From Streptomyces sp. CG1 (lineage in GTDB: Bacteria; Actinomycetota; Actinomycetes; Streptomycetales; Streptomycetaceae), in contig NZ_CP163518.1 in assembly GCF_041080625.1 (NCBI RefSeq), positions 5,890,001 through 5,954,000 on the forward strand: DNA of 64,000 nt, given 5' to 3'. Below the pieces are notes generated by a model. It was not told the origin of the DNA and searched no databases. It worked only from the letters and a program-made list of their open reading frames with translations. The position numbers and the translations under genes were made by a program. Shown here piece by piece: positions 1,652 to 32,935 of the stretch (the first letter of the stretch is position 1; the number at the start of each line of letters is the position of its first letter).

Positions 1652-3172
1652 GTGACTGACTCCGGACTCGCATCCCTGCCCGCTTCCGACCGGCCCGACA
1701 TCGCCGCGCGCCTGCGGGACGCGCTGCTGGCCGCCTCCTTCACCGCAGACGGGCTGCTCGACCGGCTCGGCGCCCCCGCGTACGCGGCGCTGGCCCGCAG
1801 CGAGACCGTGCCCGCCCTCCGGGCGACCCGCGGCGACACGCCGCTGGAGACACTCGTACGGCTGTTCCTGCTCCAGCAACCGGTGCCGCACGCGCGCGTG
1901 GCGGCCGTTCTGCCGGTCGAGGAGGCGCTGGAGGCCGGGTGGCTCACGCGCGTGGGCGGCGGCGAGGTGGCCGCCACCGTGGACGTACGGCCCTACGGCG
2001 GCCCCGGCGGTGAGGACTGGTTCATCGTCTCCGACCTGGGCTGCGCCGTCGGCGGTGCGGGCGGCATCGGGCAGCGCGACGAGGGCGTCGTCCTGGGTGT
2101 CGGCGGTGCCTCCACGACGCTCGCCGGCATCACCGTCCGCACGCCGGTCGCGTCCGCCCTGGACCTCGGCACGGGATCCGGTATCCAGGCGCTGCACGCG
2201 GCCCAGCACGCCACGCGCGTGACGGCGACCGACCTCAACCCGCGCGCACTGCACATCACCGCGCTCACGCTCGCACTCTCCGGCGCGCCTGCCGCCGATC
2301 TGCGCGAGGGCTCGCTCTTCGAGCCCGTCCGGGACGACGAGACCTTCGATCTGATCGTGTCCAACCCGCCGTTCGTCATCTCGCCCGGAGCCCGGCTGAC
2401 GTACCGGGACGGTGGCATGGGCGGGGACGATCTGTGCCGCTCGCTCGTTCAGCAGGCAGGGGAATGGCTGAACGAGGGCGGGTTCGCGCAGTTGCTCGCC
2501 AACTGGCAGCACGTGGCAGGGGAGGACTGGCAGGACAGACTCAGGTCATGGGTGCCGCGCGGGTGCGATGCCTGGATCGTGCAGCGCGAGGTACAGGACG
2601 TCACGCAGTACGCCGAGCTGTGGCTGAGGGACGCCGGTGACCACCGCGGGGATCCGGCGGAGTACCAGGCGCGTTACGACGCCTGGCTCGACGAGTTCGA
2701 GGCGCGCAAGGTCAAGGCGGTCGGCTTCGGCTGGATCACCCTGCGCAGGACGGGGTCCGCGGATCCCGTCGTCACCGTGGAGGAGTGGCCGCATCCGGTC
2801 GAGCAGCCCCTCGGGGACACGATCCGGGGGCACTTCGAGCGGCTCGACTATCTCCGGGAGCACGATGACGCGGCGCTGCTCGCCAGCCACTTCAGGCTCG
2901 CCGCCGAGGTGGTCCAGGAGCAGGTCGGGCTGCCCGGCGCCGAGGACCCGGAGCACGTGGTGCTGCGCCAGCATCGCGGGATGCGCCGGGCCACCAAGGT
3001 GGACACGGTCGGCGCCGGGTTCGCGGGCGTCTGCGACGGCACGCTGAGCGCGGGCCGCATCCTGGACGCCATCGCCCAACTCGTGAACGAGGACCCGGTG
3101 TTGCTCCGCGACCGGACGCCCGCGCAGATCCGCCTGCTGGTGGAGCAGGGCTTCCTCGATCCGGCGAACTGA
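1652..3172 (+). CDS. Class I SAM-dependent methyltransferase (HemK/RlmG-like NPPF type)
   Basis: The product is 506 residues. An N-terminal part (about 1-160) without clear motifs precedes a Rossmann methyltransferase core: LDLGTGSGIQ (SAM motif I) near residue 170, TDLNPRAL (motif II) near 193, and SNPPF near 237. The (N/D)PPY/F motif is typical of enzymes that methylate amide or exocyclic nitrogen, such as glutamine in release factors or guanine in rRNA. The substrate is not readable from the sequence. The C-terminal 200 residues are an extension seen in actinobacterial members. The GTG start at 1652 begins the first stretch with coding character. Downstream come a hairpin (3236-3261) and short repeats. 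Confidence 0.85.
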   Translation: MTDSGLASLPASDRPDIAARLRDALLAASFTADGLLDRLGAPAYAALARSETVPALRATRGDTPLETLVRLFLLQQPVPHARVAAVLPVEEALEAGWLTRVGGGEVAATVDVRPYGGPGGEDWFIVSDLGCAVGGAGGIGQRDEGVVLGVGGASTTLAGITVRTPVASALDLGTGSGIQALHAAQHATRVTATDLNPRALHITALTLALSGAPAADLREGSLFEPVRDDETFDLIVSNPPFVISPGARLTYRDGGMGGDDLCRSLVQQAGEWLNEGGFAQLLANWQHVAGEDWQDRLRSWVPRGCDAWIVQREVQDVTQYAELWLRDAGDHRGDPAEYQARYDAWLDEFEARKVKAVGFGWITLRRTGSADPVVTVEEWPHPVEQPLGDTIRGHFERLDYLREHDDAALLASHFRLAAEVVQEQVGLPGAEDPEHVVLRQHRGMRRATKVDTVGAGFAGVCDGTLSAGRILDAIAQLVNEDPVLLRDRTPAQIRLLVEQGFLDPAN

Positions 3173-27588: not shown

Positions 27589-27852
27589 ATGCGCAAGGGA
27601 ATCCACCCGGAGTACGGGCCCGTCGTGTTCCGTGACCGTGCCGCGAAACACACCTTCCTCACTCGCTCGACGCTTGCGGCCGTGCCGGCCGGCAAGACCA
27701 TCGAGTGGGAGGACGGCAACACCTACCCGGTGGTGGACGTCGAGATCTCGAACGTCAGCCACCCCTTCTACACCGGCACGGCGCGCGTGCTGGACACCGC
27801 TGGGCGCGTGGAGCGCTTCGAGCGCCGGTACGGCACGCGGGGTGGGGCGTGA
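27589..27852 (+). CDS. rpmE2: 50S ribosomal protein L31 type B, zinc-independent
   Basis: The 87-residue product is [19 protein letters not shown], then [33 protein letters not shown] and VERFERRYG. This is type B L31, with none of the cysteines that bind zinc in type A. It is 9 bp after rpmG and overlaps the next gene by 4 bp (GTGA), so the operon is tightly coupled. Confidence 0.95.
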
Positions 27853-29165
27853 GCCTCGCCGTGGCCGTGGTGGGCGGGCTGCACGCCGAAGCCCGCAAGG
27901 CGGCCGTCGACCGCTTGCTCGCCGACGTACCCGGCAGCGTCGTACTCCACCACGACCTGGCGTCGGCCACCGCCGGCACGGTCGTCCGTACGGTCCGCGA
28001 CCGTGGCGGCATCCTGTCCGCGGGTGAGGCGCCCCTGGTCAACGACTGCGCGTGCTGCGCGCTGCGCGAGGACCTGGTGCCCGAACTGCGCAGGCTCGCC
28101 GACGACGGCGCGACCCGGCTCGCGATCGTCGAGCTGTGGGACTCGGTCGAGCCCAAGGCGATGGCCGAGGTGGTCGCGTCCGGCGGGCTGACCGTCACCT
28201 CAGTGATCACCGCCGTGGACCCGGCGCTGGTGCTGCCGTACCTCGGTAACGGCGACGACCTCGCCGAGGCCGGTCTCGCGGCGGCGGCCACCGACCGGCG
28301 CACGATCGCCGACACCTTCGCCCGACAGCTGGAGTACGCCCCCGTCCTCGCCCTGGCCGACTCCATGGAGGCGGACGACGAGGACCGCGAGCTGCTGGCG
28401 CAGCTCCACCCGACGGCCCGCCAGGTTCCGATCGGCCACGGTGGCCTGGCGGGCACCACACGCACGGGCGCCACACCAGCAGCGGCCGCACCCGCACCGG
28501 AACCCGGTTCCACACCGGACCACGCAGCCACGCCAGAATCCGCACCTGCACCGGACCCCGCAGCTGCACGTGCACCGGAATCCCCTGAGCCCACTCCCAC
28601 CTCCACCCCTGCCCCCGCTCCCGCGCCCGGCCCGCTGGCCCGGGCCGCCCTCGCCGGTTTCGACGCGGAGGCCGCCGCGGCGGCCCAGCACCCGGCCTGT
28701 GCCCGGCTGCCCGCCGAGGCCGACAGCCACGGCGTGTCGACCCTGGTCTGGCATCGCCGCCGGCCCTTCCACCCGGTGCGGCTGTACGCGGCGCTGGAGG
28801 ATCTGACCTGCGCCGCGGCCCGCAGCCGGGGCCGGTTCTGGCTCGCCGACAAGCCGGACACGCTGCTGCACTGGGACGCGGCCGGCGGGGCGCTGTGCGT
28901 CGAGAGCGCCGGGCCGTGGCTGGCCGCGCTGCCCGACGCGGCCTGGGAGATGGTCCCGCCGGTCCGCCGGGCCGCGGCGGCGCTGGACTGGCACCCCGAG
29001 CACGGCGACTGCTGCAACCACCTCGTGTTCACCTCGCCCGGCCTCGACCGCGACGGACTGGCGCACCTCCTGGAGTCCTGCCTGCTCACCGACGCCGAGT
29101 ACGCCGCCGGGCGCGACGCCTGGAAGCGGCTGCCGCCCGCCTTCGACACCCTGCTGGAGATCTGA
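27849..29165 (+). CDS. COG0523-like (CobW/ZNG1-type) protein with degenerate P-loop
   Basis: The product is 438 residues. COG0523 GTPases are putative metal chaperones, and members in Zur regulons deliver zinc. Here the metal motif CxCC is present ([12 protein letters not shown], Cys67, Cys69 and Cys70), as are the EL..S.EP-like segment ([15 protein letters not shown]) and the C-terminal CobW_C domain ([22 protein letters not shown]). The Walker A segment expected near residue 10 reads [12 protein letters not shown], with no GxxGxGKT, so normal GTP binding is doubtful. A 50-residue Ala/Pro/Glu-rich linker (about 200-260), encoded by short CCGCACC-type repeats, separates the halves. GTG 27849 overlaps the rpmE2 stop, and rpsR starts in the stop codon of this gene. 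Confidence 0.88.
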
Positions 29166-30764: not shown

Positions 30765-30812
30765 CGTGCACGTGCATCTGCTCATGCACATGCACGTGAA
30801 CGGGGTTATGAT
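30765..30812 (+). promoter_or_regulatory. Candidate operator and promoter of the DUF397 gene
   Basis: The element CGTGCACGTGCATCTGC plus TCATGCA (30765-30788) contains the palindrome TGCACGTGCA and is part of a larger imperfect dyad extending to 30805. A -35-like ATGCAC (30784-30789) overlaps it, followed after 17 bp by TATGAT (30807-30812). A second copy lies upstream of the HATPase gene. Confidence 0.6.
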
Positions 30813-30874
30813 CCGGGTCAGTTGACCACAGCATCTATGGCCACATCAGCCAGTGCACCACCGGGGAGCGACCT

Positions 30875-31144
30875 GTGGACCGCGACGTTGACGGCGTGTA
30901 CGGGGGGTACGACGTGTACAACGGCATGGCTGCCGCGCAGCTGAGCGGAGTGGCCTGGCAGAAGAGCAGGCACAGCAACTCGCAGGGTTCCTGCGTGGAG
31001 TTCGCGCGGCTGCCGGGCGGCGAGGTCGCCGTACGCAACTCGCGCTTCCCGGACGGCCCGGCGCTCGTCTACACGCGAGCGGAGATCGAGGCCATGCTGC
31101 TCGGCATCAAGGACGGCGAGTTCGACCACCTGATAGTGAGCTGA
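30875..31144 (+). CDS. DUF397 protein of a WhiJ-like module
   Basis: The 89-residue product contains the DUF397 signature: WQKSRHSNSQGSCVEFARLPGGEVAVRNSRFPDGPALVYTRAEIEAML. These small proteins occur in Streptomyces beside XRE-DUF5753 regulators and anti-sigma-like ATPases, and are thought to act as partners that counter the regulator. GTG 30875 has GGGGAG at a good distance. The gene converges with the HATPase gene, with a hairpin between them. Confidence 0.9.
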   Translation: MDRDVDGVYGGYDVYNGMAAAQLSGVAWQKSRHSNSQGSCVEFARLPGGEVAVRNSRFPDGPALVYTRAEIEAMLLGIKDGEFDHLIVS

Positions 31145-31154
31145 CGGACGGGTG

Positions 31155-31173
31155 GGGGCGGGTCTCCCGCCCC
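31155..31173. terminator. Bidirectional hairpin between DUF397 and HATPase genes
   Basis: Arms GGGGCGGG/CCCGCCCC with a 3-nt loop lie between the convergent stops. Confidence 0.7.
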
Positions 31174-31253
31174 GATGGCAACGATGTCGGAAGCGGGGGG
31201 AACGGGCGCTGCAACGCGCGTAGAAACCGGGCGTCCGTGGATGTTTCGCCGTG

Positions 31254-31766
31254 TCAGCCGACCGGTCGGAGCCGGAACAGCGCCCAGACGACCTTGCCCT
31301 CGAGGGTGCCCGCGAGCGGATGCCAGCCCCAGCTGTCGGCGAAGGAGTCGACCAGGAACAGCCCGCGCCCGGACTCTGCGGAGAAGTCGTCCGAGTCCCG
31401 CGGCACCGGCGTCTCGTGGCTCGGGTCGCGCACCGCGCACACCAGCCGCTCGGTCCAGCGCATCAGGTGCAGCCGTACGGACGCGGCTGCTTCGGGGCAT
31501 CCGGTGTCGGCGGGGCGTCCGGTGTCGGCCGGCACCGCATGGCGCAGGGCGTTGGTGACGAGTTCGGAGACGACCAGGCATATGTCGTCGAAGCGGTCGC
31601 CGGCGTCCCACTTGTCGAGAGTGTCGCGGGTGAAGTGCCGGGCCTCGCGCACCGCCTCGTAGCGGGCGGGCAGGGCGCAGGAGGCGGCATCGGACACGGC
31701 CGCGGGATCCAGCGGCGGAAGGCCCTGCCGTAACGGCTTGAGCATGGTCGATCCATTCGTCCCCAT
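31254..31766 (-). CDS. Anti-sigma-factor-like ATP-binding protein (HATPase_c_2)
   Basis: The 170-residue product has the GHKL ATPase N box (DDICLVVSELVTNALRHAV) and the G box (SGRGLFLVDSFADSWGWH), as in SpoIIAB/RsbW-type serine kinases. It may phosphorylate an anti-sigma antagonist or simply bind nucleotide. ATG 31766 is chosen because GGGAG is 8 nt upstream; the longer frame beginning at 31964 is noncoding leader. It is divergent from the XRE-DUF5753 gene and convergent with DUF397, giving the classical three-gene WhiJ-like arrangement. Confidence 0.9.
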   Translation of the reverse strand: MGTNGSTMLKPLRQGLPPLDPAAVSDAASCALPARYEAVREARHFTRDTLDKWDAGDRFDDICLVVSELVTNALRHAVPADTGRPADTGCPEAAASVRLHLMRWTERLVCAVRDPSHETPVPRDSDDFSAESGRGLFLVDSFADSWGWHPLAGTLEGKVVWALFRLRPVG

Positions 31767-32074
31767 GCGAGGCACTCCCGGGAAGACGCGGTCGTTGCGA
31801 TGCAGCGGTGGCGCGGCACCATGGTTTCGGATGCGCGAAGCAGATGCAAGGGCAGATGCACGTGCACGCGACCGAATTGGCCCTGCCCGTACCGCTTCTT
31901 GGCCATTTTTTCCGCCATCTTCTCGGCGATTACCGCCAGAGGTACTGACCTCTTCCCGACACACGTAGGCAGAAACGGCCCGCCTCTTTCCGTTTCCGTA
32001 ACCGGGCGAGTACTGCTCGAAGTGTTTTAGTGGCAGACTGCGGGCCCTGAAGACGGTTGGGGAGGCTGACGAAC
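31767..32074. other. Divergent intergenic region, HATPase / XRE-DUF5753
   Basis: It carries the leftward promoter with the 24-nt element at 31845-31868, a direct repeat GCAGATGCA (31840-31848 and 31852-31860), and a rather AT-rich stretch (31900-32035) that probably holds the promoter of the XRE gene. No gene is present. Confidence 0.5.
31845..31868 (-). promoter_or_regulatory. Second copy of the 24-nt element, upstream of the HATPase gene
   Basis: Read toward the HATPase gene it is CGTGCACGTGCATCTGC plus CCTTGCA, identical at 22 of 24 positions to 30765-30788 and in the same orientation relative to its gene. It lies 78 nt upstream of ATG 31766; the other copy is 86 nt upstream of its start codon. 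TTGCAT overlaps its end as a possible -35. Confidence 0.6.
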
Positions 32075-32935
32075 GTGAGCGCGGGAGAGCCCGGATCGGT
32101 GGTGCGGCGGATGCTGCTCGGTTCGCAACTCAGGCGACTGCGTGAAGCACGGGGGATCACGCGTGAGGCGGCGGGGTACTCGATCCGCGCCTCCGAGTCG
32201 AAGATCAGCCGGATGGAGCTGGGCCGGGTGAGCTTCAAGACCAGGGACGTCGAAGACCTGTTGACGCTGTACGGCATCACGGACGAGGTGGAGCGCGAGT
32301 CGCTGCTCTCCCTCGCCCGGGAGGCCAACGTGGCCGGCTGGTGGCACAGTTACACCGATGTCCTGCCCAGCTGGTTCCCCACCTATGTGGGCCTGGAGGG
32401 CGCCGCGTCCCTCATCCGGGTCTACGAGGTGCAGTTCGTGCACGGCCTGCTCCAGACCGAGGAGTACGCCCGCTCGGTGGTCCGGCGCGGCATGCAGGGC
32501 GCGAGCCCGGCCGACGTCGAGCGCCGGGTCTCGCTGCGCCTGGAACGGCAGAAGCACCTGTTCGCGGCCAGCGCCCCCGAGTTCCACTTCGTCCTCGACG
32601 AGGCCGCCCTGCGCCGCCCCTACGGCGACCGCGAGGTGATGCGCGGCCAGCTCCAGCACCTCATCGACGTCTCCCAGCGGCCCAACGTACGGCTGCAGAT
32701 CATGCCGTTCGGCTTCGGCGGGCACTCCGGTGAGAGCGGCGCCTTCACCCTCCTCAGCTTCCCCGACGCCGACCTGTCCGACGTCGTCTACGTGGAGCAG
32801 CTGACCAGCGCGCTCTATCTGGACAAGCGCGAGGACGTCTGCCAGTACGAGCAGGCGCTGAAGGAGCTGCAGCAGGACAGCCCGGGCCCCGACGAGAGCC
32901 GGGACCTGCTCCGCGGACTCCTGCAACTGTCCTGA
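32075..32935 (+). CDS. XRE-family regulator with DUF5753 (WhiJ-like)
   Basis: The 286-residue product has an N-terminal helix-turn-helix (about 15-70: LGSQLRRLREARGITREAAGYSIRASESKISRMELGRVSFK) and a DUF5753 domain (about 95-275), recognisable by WFPTYVGLEGAASLIRVYEVQFVHGLLQTEEYARSV and VRLQIMPFGFGGHSGESGAFTLLSF. Members such as WhiJ control development and antibiotic production together with DUF397 partners. GTG 32075 has GGGGAGG 9 nt upstream. It is the likely ligand of the 24-nt elements at 30765 and 31845 (inference). Short repeats start at its stop codon. Confidence 0.92.
   Translation: MSAGEPGSVVRRMLLGSQLRRLREARGITREAAGYSIRASESKISRMELGRVSFKTRDVEDLLTLYGITDEVERESLLSLAREANVAGWWHSYTDVLPSWFPTYVGLEGAASLIRVYEVQFVHGLLQTEEYARSVVRRGMQGASPADVERRVSLRLERQKHLFAASAPEFHFVLDEAALRRPYGDREVMRGQLQHLIDVSQRPNVRLQIMPFGFGGHSGESGAFTLLSFPDADLSDVVYVEQLTSALYLDKREDVCQYEQALKELQQDSPGPDESRDLLRGLLQLS

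Follow-up and report, generated by a model that had tools for sequence, protein, structure and literature searches.

A window of 64,000 nucleotides from the 11.1-Mb genome of Streptomyces sp. CG1 (NZ_CP163518.1, 5.89–5.95 Mb) was analysed, with positions counted from its first letter. It holds a trio of neighbouring genes for a DUF397, a HATPase_c_2 and an XRE-DUF5753 protein, given here with their Pfam matches.

30875..31144, + strand: DUF397 (BldB-like) protein of 89 aa (PF04149, 1.4e-18), putative orthologue of SCO3424 (via the related locus L020)
31254..31766, − strand: HATPase_c_2 (AbaA-like, anti-sigma-like) protein of 170 aa (PF13581, 2.4e-13), putative orthologue of SCO3423
32075..32935, + strand: XRE (HTH_31)-DUF5753 WhiJ-like regulator of 286 aa (PF13560, 1.9e-15; PF19054, 1.6e-60), putative orthologue of SCO3421 and proposed here as the binder of both arrays described below

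By Pfam, the three genes have the composition of a WhiJ/BldB/AbaA trio, namely an XRE-type HTH combined with DUF5753, an adjoining DUF397 protein of no more than 100 aa and an adjoining AbaA-like HATPase. The third member had been called an XRE-DUF5753 regulator in the original prediction, and both its HTH_31 and its DUF5753 domain were matched. DUF5753 was matched 25 times in the genome of the window and was absent from all 14 named control genomes searched. PDB sequence searches with the XRE and DUF397 proteins returned weak, unrelated matches only.

The DUF397 gene starts with GTG at 30875 and the HATPase gene with ATG at 31766. A longer HATPase frame starting at 31964 appears in the mechanical list of open reading frames, and the start at 31766 was preferred because the stretch between the conserved element and 31766 is unconserved (0.28 bits). 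The HATPase gene of the window carries a TTA codon at position 12. TTA is a rare leucine codon, which would make this gene depend on the bldA tRNA. The codon was found in 135 of 148 HATPase orthologues, mostly at codon 12, and in the aligned regions of 0 of 141 DUF397 and 0 of 149 XRE genes.

A 24-nt element had been predicted in the promoters of DUF397 and HATPase, in the same sense relative to each gene and with 22 of 24 matches. Both copies were located, at 30765–30788 (+, CGTGCACGTGCATCTGCTCATGCA) and 31845–31868 (−, CGTGCACGTGCATCTGCCCTTGCA), with an identity of 22/24, and 100 shuffles of the window gave no match. Their spacing was as predicted: the DUF397 GTG (30875) follows after 86 nt and the HATPase ATG (31766) after 78 nt, each in gene sense. 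The two copies are thus real, but what they belong to is a phased array of 12-bp repeats longer than 24 nt, extending over 30767–30802 at the first promoter and over 31843–31866 plus a partial unit at the second. The consensus of the 12-bp unit across loci is TGCNCNTGCATC, with two copies and a part of a third at the HATPase promoter and usually three at the DUF397 promoter. From the array start, the HATPase site reads G TGCACG TGCATC TGCCCT TGCATC TGC, with TGC at each 6 bp. The arrays and the promoter hexamers around them are listed below.

30766..30802, + strand: array in the DUF397 promoter, candidate operator, consisting of G followed by TGCACGTGCATC, TGCTCATGCACA and TGCACGTGAACG
31840..31867, − strand: array in the HATPase promoter, candidate operator, consisting of G followed by TGCACGTGCATC, TGCCCTTGCATC and a partial TGC
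30784..30789, + strand: hexamer ATGCAC inside the DUF397 array, putative -35, a poor match to TTGACA
30807..30812, + strand: TATGAT, the DUF397 -10 hexamer, with an offset of 41 relative to the start of the array in 119 of the 140 rows
31844..31849, − strand: hexamer TTGCAT inside the HATPase array (146 of 148 loci), putative -35
31821..31826, − strand: weak -10-like hexamer AACCAT within the conserved GAAACCATGG, putative promoter element

The -35 position was set at the usual 17 bp back from TATGAT, and the HATPase hexamers were placed at the same offsets by analogy. A -35-like hexamer had been predicted to overlap the end of each copy; it is present inside the array, provided that the 17 bp are counted back from the conserved TATGAT (30784–30789, and 31849–31844 at the HATPase offsets). 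Transcription of DUF397 is predicted to start near 30819 and that of HATPase near 31814. The DUF397 -35 position was occupied by ATGCAT in 77 and by ATGCAG in 21 of 140 rows, and the HATPase -10 position, at the same offset, by AACCAT in 112, AACGAT in 21 and AAGCAT in 10 of 148.

The 140 DUF397-site rows include one spurious coding match (L138), which was dropped for the count of TATGAT offsets. Over the remaining 139 rows, TATGAT or a near variant lay at offset 40 in one, 41 in 121 and 42 in five, with longer offsets of 53 (four rows), 54 (three), 65 (two), 66 (one) and 77 (two). Twelve of the 139 DUF397 arrays are therefore extended by 12, 24 or 36 bp, within 1 bp, and since long arrays grow in 12-bp steps, the unit size was taken as 12 bp. 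A simple palindrome was also considered as the unit, as TGCACGTGCA is palindromic and site 1 is nearly dyad-symmetric, but it was set aside because the 12-bp direct repeat is the feature conserved across loci. The distance from the array to the aligned start varied across loci, from 27 to 147 nt at one promoter and from 79 to 177 nt at the other.

Conservation was evaluated in orthologous loci of 150 Streptomyces genomes. XRE matches of some grade were found in all 150 and orthologue-grade matches in 149; G001 (79% complete) had paralog-grade matches only, and G114 was excluded because its locus lies at a contig end. The 149 loci compared come from 148 of the 150 genomes, with a second G011 copy (L140) added, and as the genomes are related, the locus counts do not represent independent events. 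At the HATPase promoter, the 16-mer GTGCACGTGCATCTGC was found in 148 of the 149 loci (131 exact, 17 with one mismatch); L140 alone lacks it, and no HATPase or DUF397 gene lies near that copy. HATPase protein identity among the loci goes down to 43% (L151). At the DUF397 promoter, the 16-mer was found with at most two mismatches in 135 of the 141 loci with DUF397 aligned, the remaining loci having three mismatches (two loci), four (three loci, among them the row of L129, which is misplaced at 1020 nt from the start) and seven (one locus). Twenty permuted 16-mers, compared with the same 141 loci at up to two mismatches, gave 1 match in 2820 at the DUF397 and 0 in 2820 at the HATPase promoter. 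The original prediction had named absence of the element from conserved orthologous trios as evidence against it; the element was kept at 148 of 148 HATPase promoters and at 135 of 141 DUF397 promoters.

Eight of the 149 loci were without DUF397 in the piece examined, namely three that were extended (as L220–L222) and L086, L137, L139, L140 and L149. In L220–L222 the DUF397 site was present, with 1, 3 and 3 mismatches to a 23-mer of the element, and in L224, the extended form of the L151 locus, the element is truly missing from the DUF397 promoter. The HATPase site carried on average 1.85 bits per position across 28 nt, falling to 1.13 in the following 12 and to 0.28 at 60–99 nt; the DUF397 site carried 1.76 bits across 23 nt and 0.32 at 60–99 nt. 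The palindrome TGCACGTGCA was found in 148 of 148 Streptomyces orthologue loci.

The 16-mer has two exact matches in the 11.1-Mb genome, which are the two trio sites. One further match with one mismatch and 20 with two mismatches were found, and one of the latter is the second arm of site 1. The reversed pattern gave 28 matches at up to two mismatches in the same genome, so that the exact matches are the only ones to stand out. The near-match in the window, at 28560–28575 (−, GTGCACGTGCAGCTGC), differs from the core by one mismatch, lies inside an open reading frame (27705–29165, +) and is probably due to chance.

Across genomes, the 23-mer at up to three mismatches matched in 150 of 150 Streptomyces genomes and its reversed control in 28. 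Exactly one forward and one reverse match were found in 101 genomes, a single match in 12 and three or four in 37; among the matches listed, a recurrent sequence with three mismatches breaks the core. An exact scan with the 24-mer, made independently of any protein in named public genomes, returned at least 119 stretches. Among those listed, 118 of 119 had a HATPase start on the same strand no more than 260 bp away, and the remaining one (L345) is cut by the end of the DNA; the XRE gene was found in 116 and DUF397 in 108. In a class-wide scan at up to two mismatches, the pattern was found in 40 of 40 Streptomyces genomes and in 7 of 354 others, against 5 of 354 for the reversed control, so that among the seven only the trio position of four is telling. 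These four lie at an XRE/DUF397 orthologue, with a HATPase in two, and the other three do not.

Twenty further loci outside Streptomyces were chosen by XRE similarity (59–66% identity) from 90 matching genomes, and TGCACGTGCA was found in 18 of them, compared to 4 of 960 simulated loci; the two without it are L236 and L240. Overall, 22 of 24 non-Streptomyces orthologue loci had TGCACGTGCA, in differing gene orders, and in all 22 a copy precedes an aligned HATPase, DUF397 or XRE start by no more than 400 bp: ten between divergent HATPase and XRE genes, eight before DUF397 and four before XRE alone. In many of these loci the array continues in 6/12-bp phase toward HATPase (for example L217, L234, L238, L241 and L243). 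In L229, L230, L232 and L245 the palindrome is followed by no clear array, and in L214 and L215 the array is directed away from DUF397. The palindrome stands 88–91 bp before the XRE start in L229, L230, L232 and L233, in which no HATPase was found; this suggests a possibly ancestral autoregulation by way of the element. In L219, an element-like sequence (ATGCACGTGCATCAGCTCTTGCA, about 3043–3065) lies away from the trio and is possibly an extra target or a chance match.

A scan near other DUF5753 genes had been proposed with the original prediction; TGCACGTGCA was found in 0 of 24 loci around the other DUF5753 proteins of the window's genome. It was likewise found in 0 of 60 loci of two WhiJ-like paralog groups (L247–L276 and L277–L306). 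A general promoter element of DUF397 and HATPase genes was rejected on these two counts. The two paralog groups have conserved upstream boxes of their own, ACACTTGGCAAG with CACTCTG-N7-CAGAGTG in one and AGATATGCATATATCTGTCG in the other, which are candidate operators of the regulators of those groups.

The recognition helix of the XRE protein reads SESKISR in 40 of 41 aligned orthologues (17 of the 148 Streptomyces orthologues and 24 others) and SESKMSR in L236. SESKISR was found in 0 of 25 paralog rows, of which at least five (L166, L173, L174, L177 and L182) are cut short or misaligned in the helix region. The second XRE copy in G011 (L140, contig C44), 71% identical and without trio or element nearby, has the helix SAVSINR and is, judged by sequence, a natural specificity variant.

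The trio corresponds, through L020, to the S. coelicolor cluster SCO3421 (XRE, WhiJ-like), SCO3423 (HATPase, AbaA-like) and SCO3424 (DUF397, BldB-like), as we infer from the order of the genes, the frequency of TTA and the sigma-E promoter of sco3424. The TTA codon was present in 135 of 148 HATPase orthologues, compared to a published figure of 12 of 14 for SCO3423. A 29-nt sigma-E promoter is listed for sco3424 with the figure 164 (PMC6767563), and an exact copy of it lies at 133–161 of L020, upstream of both the DUF397 GTG and the array at distances of 164 and 56 nt. It was found at up to six mismatches only in L020 and L022 of the locus set compared, and at up to two mismatches in L357 among 80 named loci; it is present in the relative L020 and not in the DNA of the window itself. 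S. coelicolor relatives may therefore have a second, stress-driven DUF397 promoter. SCO3423 has also been reported among the sigma-E binding sites of ethanol-stressed cells (PMC10771440). No operator or target of SCO3421 was found in the available text of papers carrying the SCO3421, SCO3423 or SCO3424 locus tags.

An identity with SCO1979/SCO1978, first suggested by protein length, was dropped on the same three lines of evidence that led to SCO3421, SCO3423 and SCO3424. That XRE-DUF397 pair has been named autoregulatory (PMC12565409, citing Zhu et al. 2020) and belongs to the same protein class as the pair of the window, but is a different paralog. In the genome of the window it would correspond, by gene order only, to L159, where the order is DUF397-XRE-HATPase and the XRE protein is 43% identical; the L159 group has conserved boxes other than the element described here.

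Operators of this regulator class had been described as mostly unknown in the original prediction. One is already published, that of WhiJ9 in S. venezuelae (PMC10294661), and it was the only mapped case found in the available parts of the literature. WhiJ9 resembles the XRE protein of the window in being an XRE-type WhiJ paralogue encoded beside a DUF397 gene, with a direct-repeat site. It binds three direct repeats of CGNNCTCAAC (PMC10294661), a 10-letter consensus in a 34-bp oligonucleotide, for which the pitch would be at most 12 bp if the repeats do not overlap. The consensus has no match at up to one mismatch in 30766–30802 or 31840–31867. WhiJ9 controls iosA and not an AbaA-like HATPase, and its site is found 113 bp ahead of the iosA start, whereas the array in the window sits on the -35. 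In the literature, searched by proteins, locus tags and literal sequence outside subscription papers, neither this operator nor an array with 12-bp steps was found described, and the literal motif returned unrelated papers only. The kind of site is hence already known, while the present array is new and unusually well conserved.

We consider the two arrays to be, very probably, the operators of the trio's own XRE-DUF5753 regulator, whatever the sign of its action. What the sequences show is the array itself, its conservation, its unit size, its position, its specificity to the XRE orthologue group and the conservation of the recognition helix. XRE molecules would bind head-to-tail along the 12-bp units over the -35 region, and the regulator would control DUF397 and HATPase together, in Streptomyces not its own gene through this element. 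It would activate both promoters by substituting for the -35 contact, and the DUF397 protein would bind and restrain it, along the lines suggested for BldB-type proteins and WhiJ9. The circuit would thereby have negative feedback, with the TTA-containing HATPase as its developmentally gated output. In S. venezuelae, five abaA (HATPase) paralogs rise upon loss of BldB, and the study that reports this offers the speculation that the abaA genes are driven by WhiJ proteins encoded next to them (PMC10294661); by analogy, the array is the site that such a model requires. A type II toxin-antitoxin role, in which XRE would neutralise a toxic DUF397 protein, has also been proposed for XRE-DUF397 pairs, and overexpression of 14 S. 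coelicolor DUF397 proteins gave no clear toxicity (PMC10364602). Against the proposed operator and its mode of action stand that another protein could read the site, that the HATPase -10 is weak and placed by analogy, and that the WhiJ9 site differs from the arrays of the window in consensus and in its distance from the target start.

Activation is slightly favoured as the sign, because the -35 hexamers (ATGCAC or ATGCAT, and TTGCAT) are poor sigma-70 matches. The main rival shares operator and binder with this explanation and differs in sign only: the XRE protein would cover the -35 and so repress both genes, with relief coming from the DUF397 protein or from a signal. We hold this to be possible, if somewhat doubtful. 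The array does cover the -35 position at both promoters, and a site placed there suits a repressor equally well. WhiJ itself was originally modelled as a repressor relieved by SCO4542 (PMC4255298), and whiJ9 transcription rose twofold when WhiJ9 was lost, in keeping with autorepression (PMC10294661); the element outside Streptomyces, often 88–147 bp before the XRE start, is compatible with the same. Repression agrees less well with the poor -35 together with the weak HATPase -10, as expected of activator-dependent promoters, and with WhiJ9, which activates iosA and is required for this in a bldB mutant (PMC10294661). The 12-bp steps in array length were also considered as an argument for activation; they may reflect unit duplication as much as a need for phasing, and since duplication alone could produce them, this argument was weakened.

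That a different protein binds the arrays, be it another DUF5753 paralog, a global regulator or the DUF397/BldB-type protein itself, is unlikely. The 25 DUF5753 matches in the genome provide candidates, and there is one report of S. lividans BldB shifting its own promoter (cited in PMC10294661), but neither SPR nor ChIP-seq gave any binding of BldB to DNA (PMC10294661). Two exact places in the window's genome, both in the trio, and usually two per genome elsewhere are ill-suited to a global regulator, which was rejected. Across genera, the element goes with the XRE orthologue group, even where no HATPase was found, and the two paralog groups compared have other upstream boxes. Lastly, a shared core-promoter sequence or chance, whether as RNA polymerase signals or as a promoter duplication, is very improbable: -35-like hexamers do lie inside the element and one ancestral promoter could have given both, but 28 positions at a mean of 1.85 bits are far above promoter hexamers, the permuted controls gave 1 and 0 of 2820, the element is absent from 24 paralogous loci, and a compositional artefact was rejected by the window shuffles, the permuted 16-mers and the simulated loci.

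WhiJ-like XRE regulators are much multiplied in Streptomyces, and a mapped operator was found in the available literature for WhiJ9 alone. Putative operators as conserved as the present arrays make this poorly understood regulator family directly testable, and the comparative method is repeatable for other paralogs, which would tell whether many trios are wired separately. Tentatively, each of the about 25 WhiJ-like regulators per genome might have a private operator over the promoters of its partners, forming insulated three-gene circuits, and the present trio might tune the antagonist per output through its count of 12-bp units, which is two at HATPase and three to six at DUF397. If true, array length would be an evolvable dial on a developmental brake.

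Upstream of the XRE gene, no copy of TGCACGTGCA lies between 31867 and the XRE start at 32075 in the window. Thirty aligned Streptomyces loci share a conserved region ahead of the XRE start, but TGCACGTGCA has no copy there beyond the HATPase array. Within it, at 32007–32039, CGAGTACTGCTCG and TTTAGTGGCAGACT are conserved in the same 30 loci and may be the XRE promoter and the site of another regulator.
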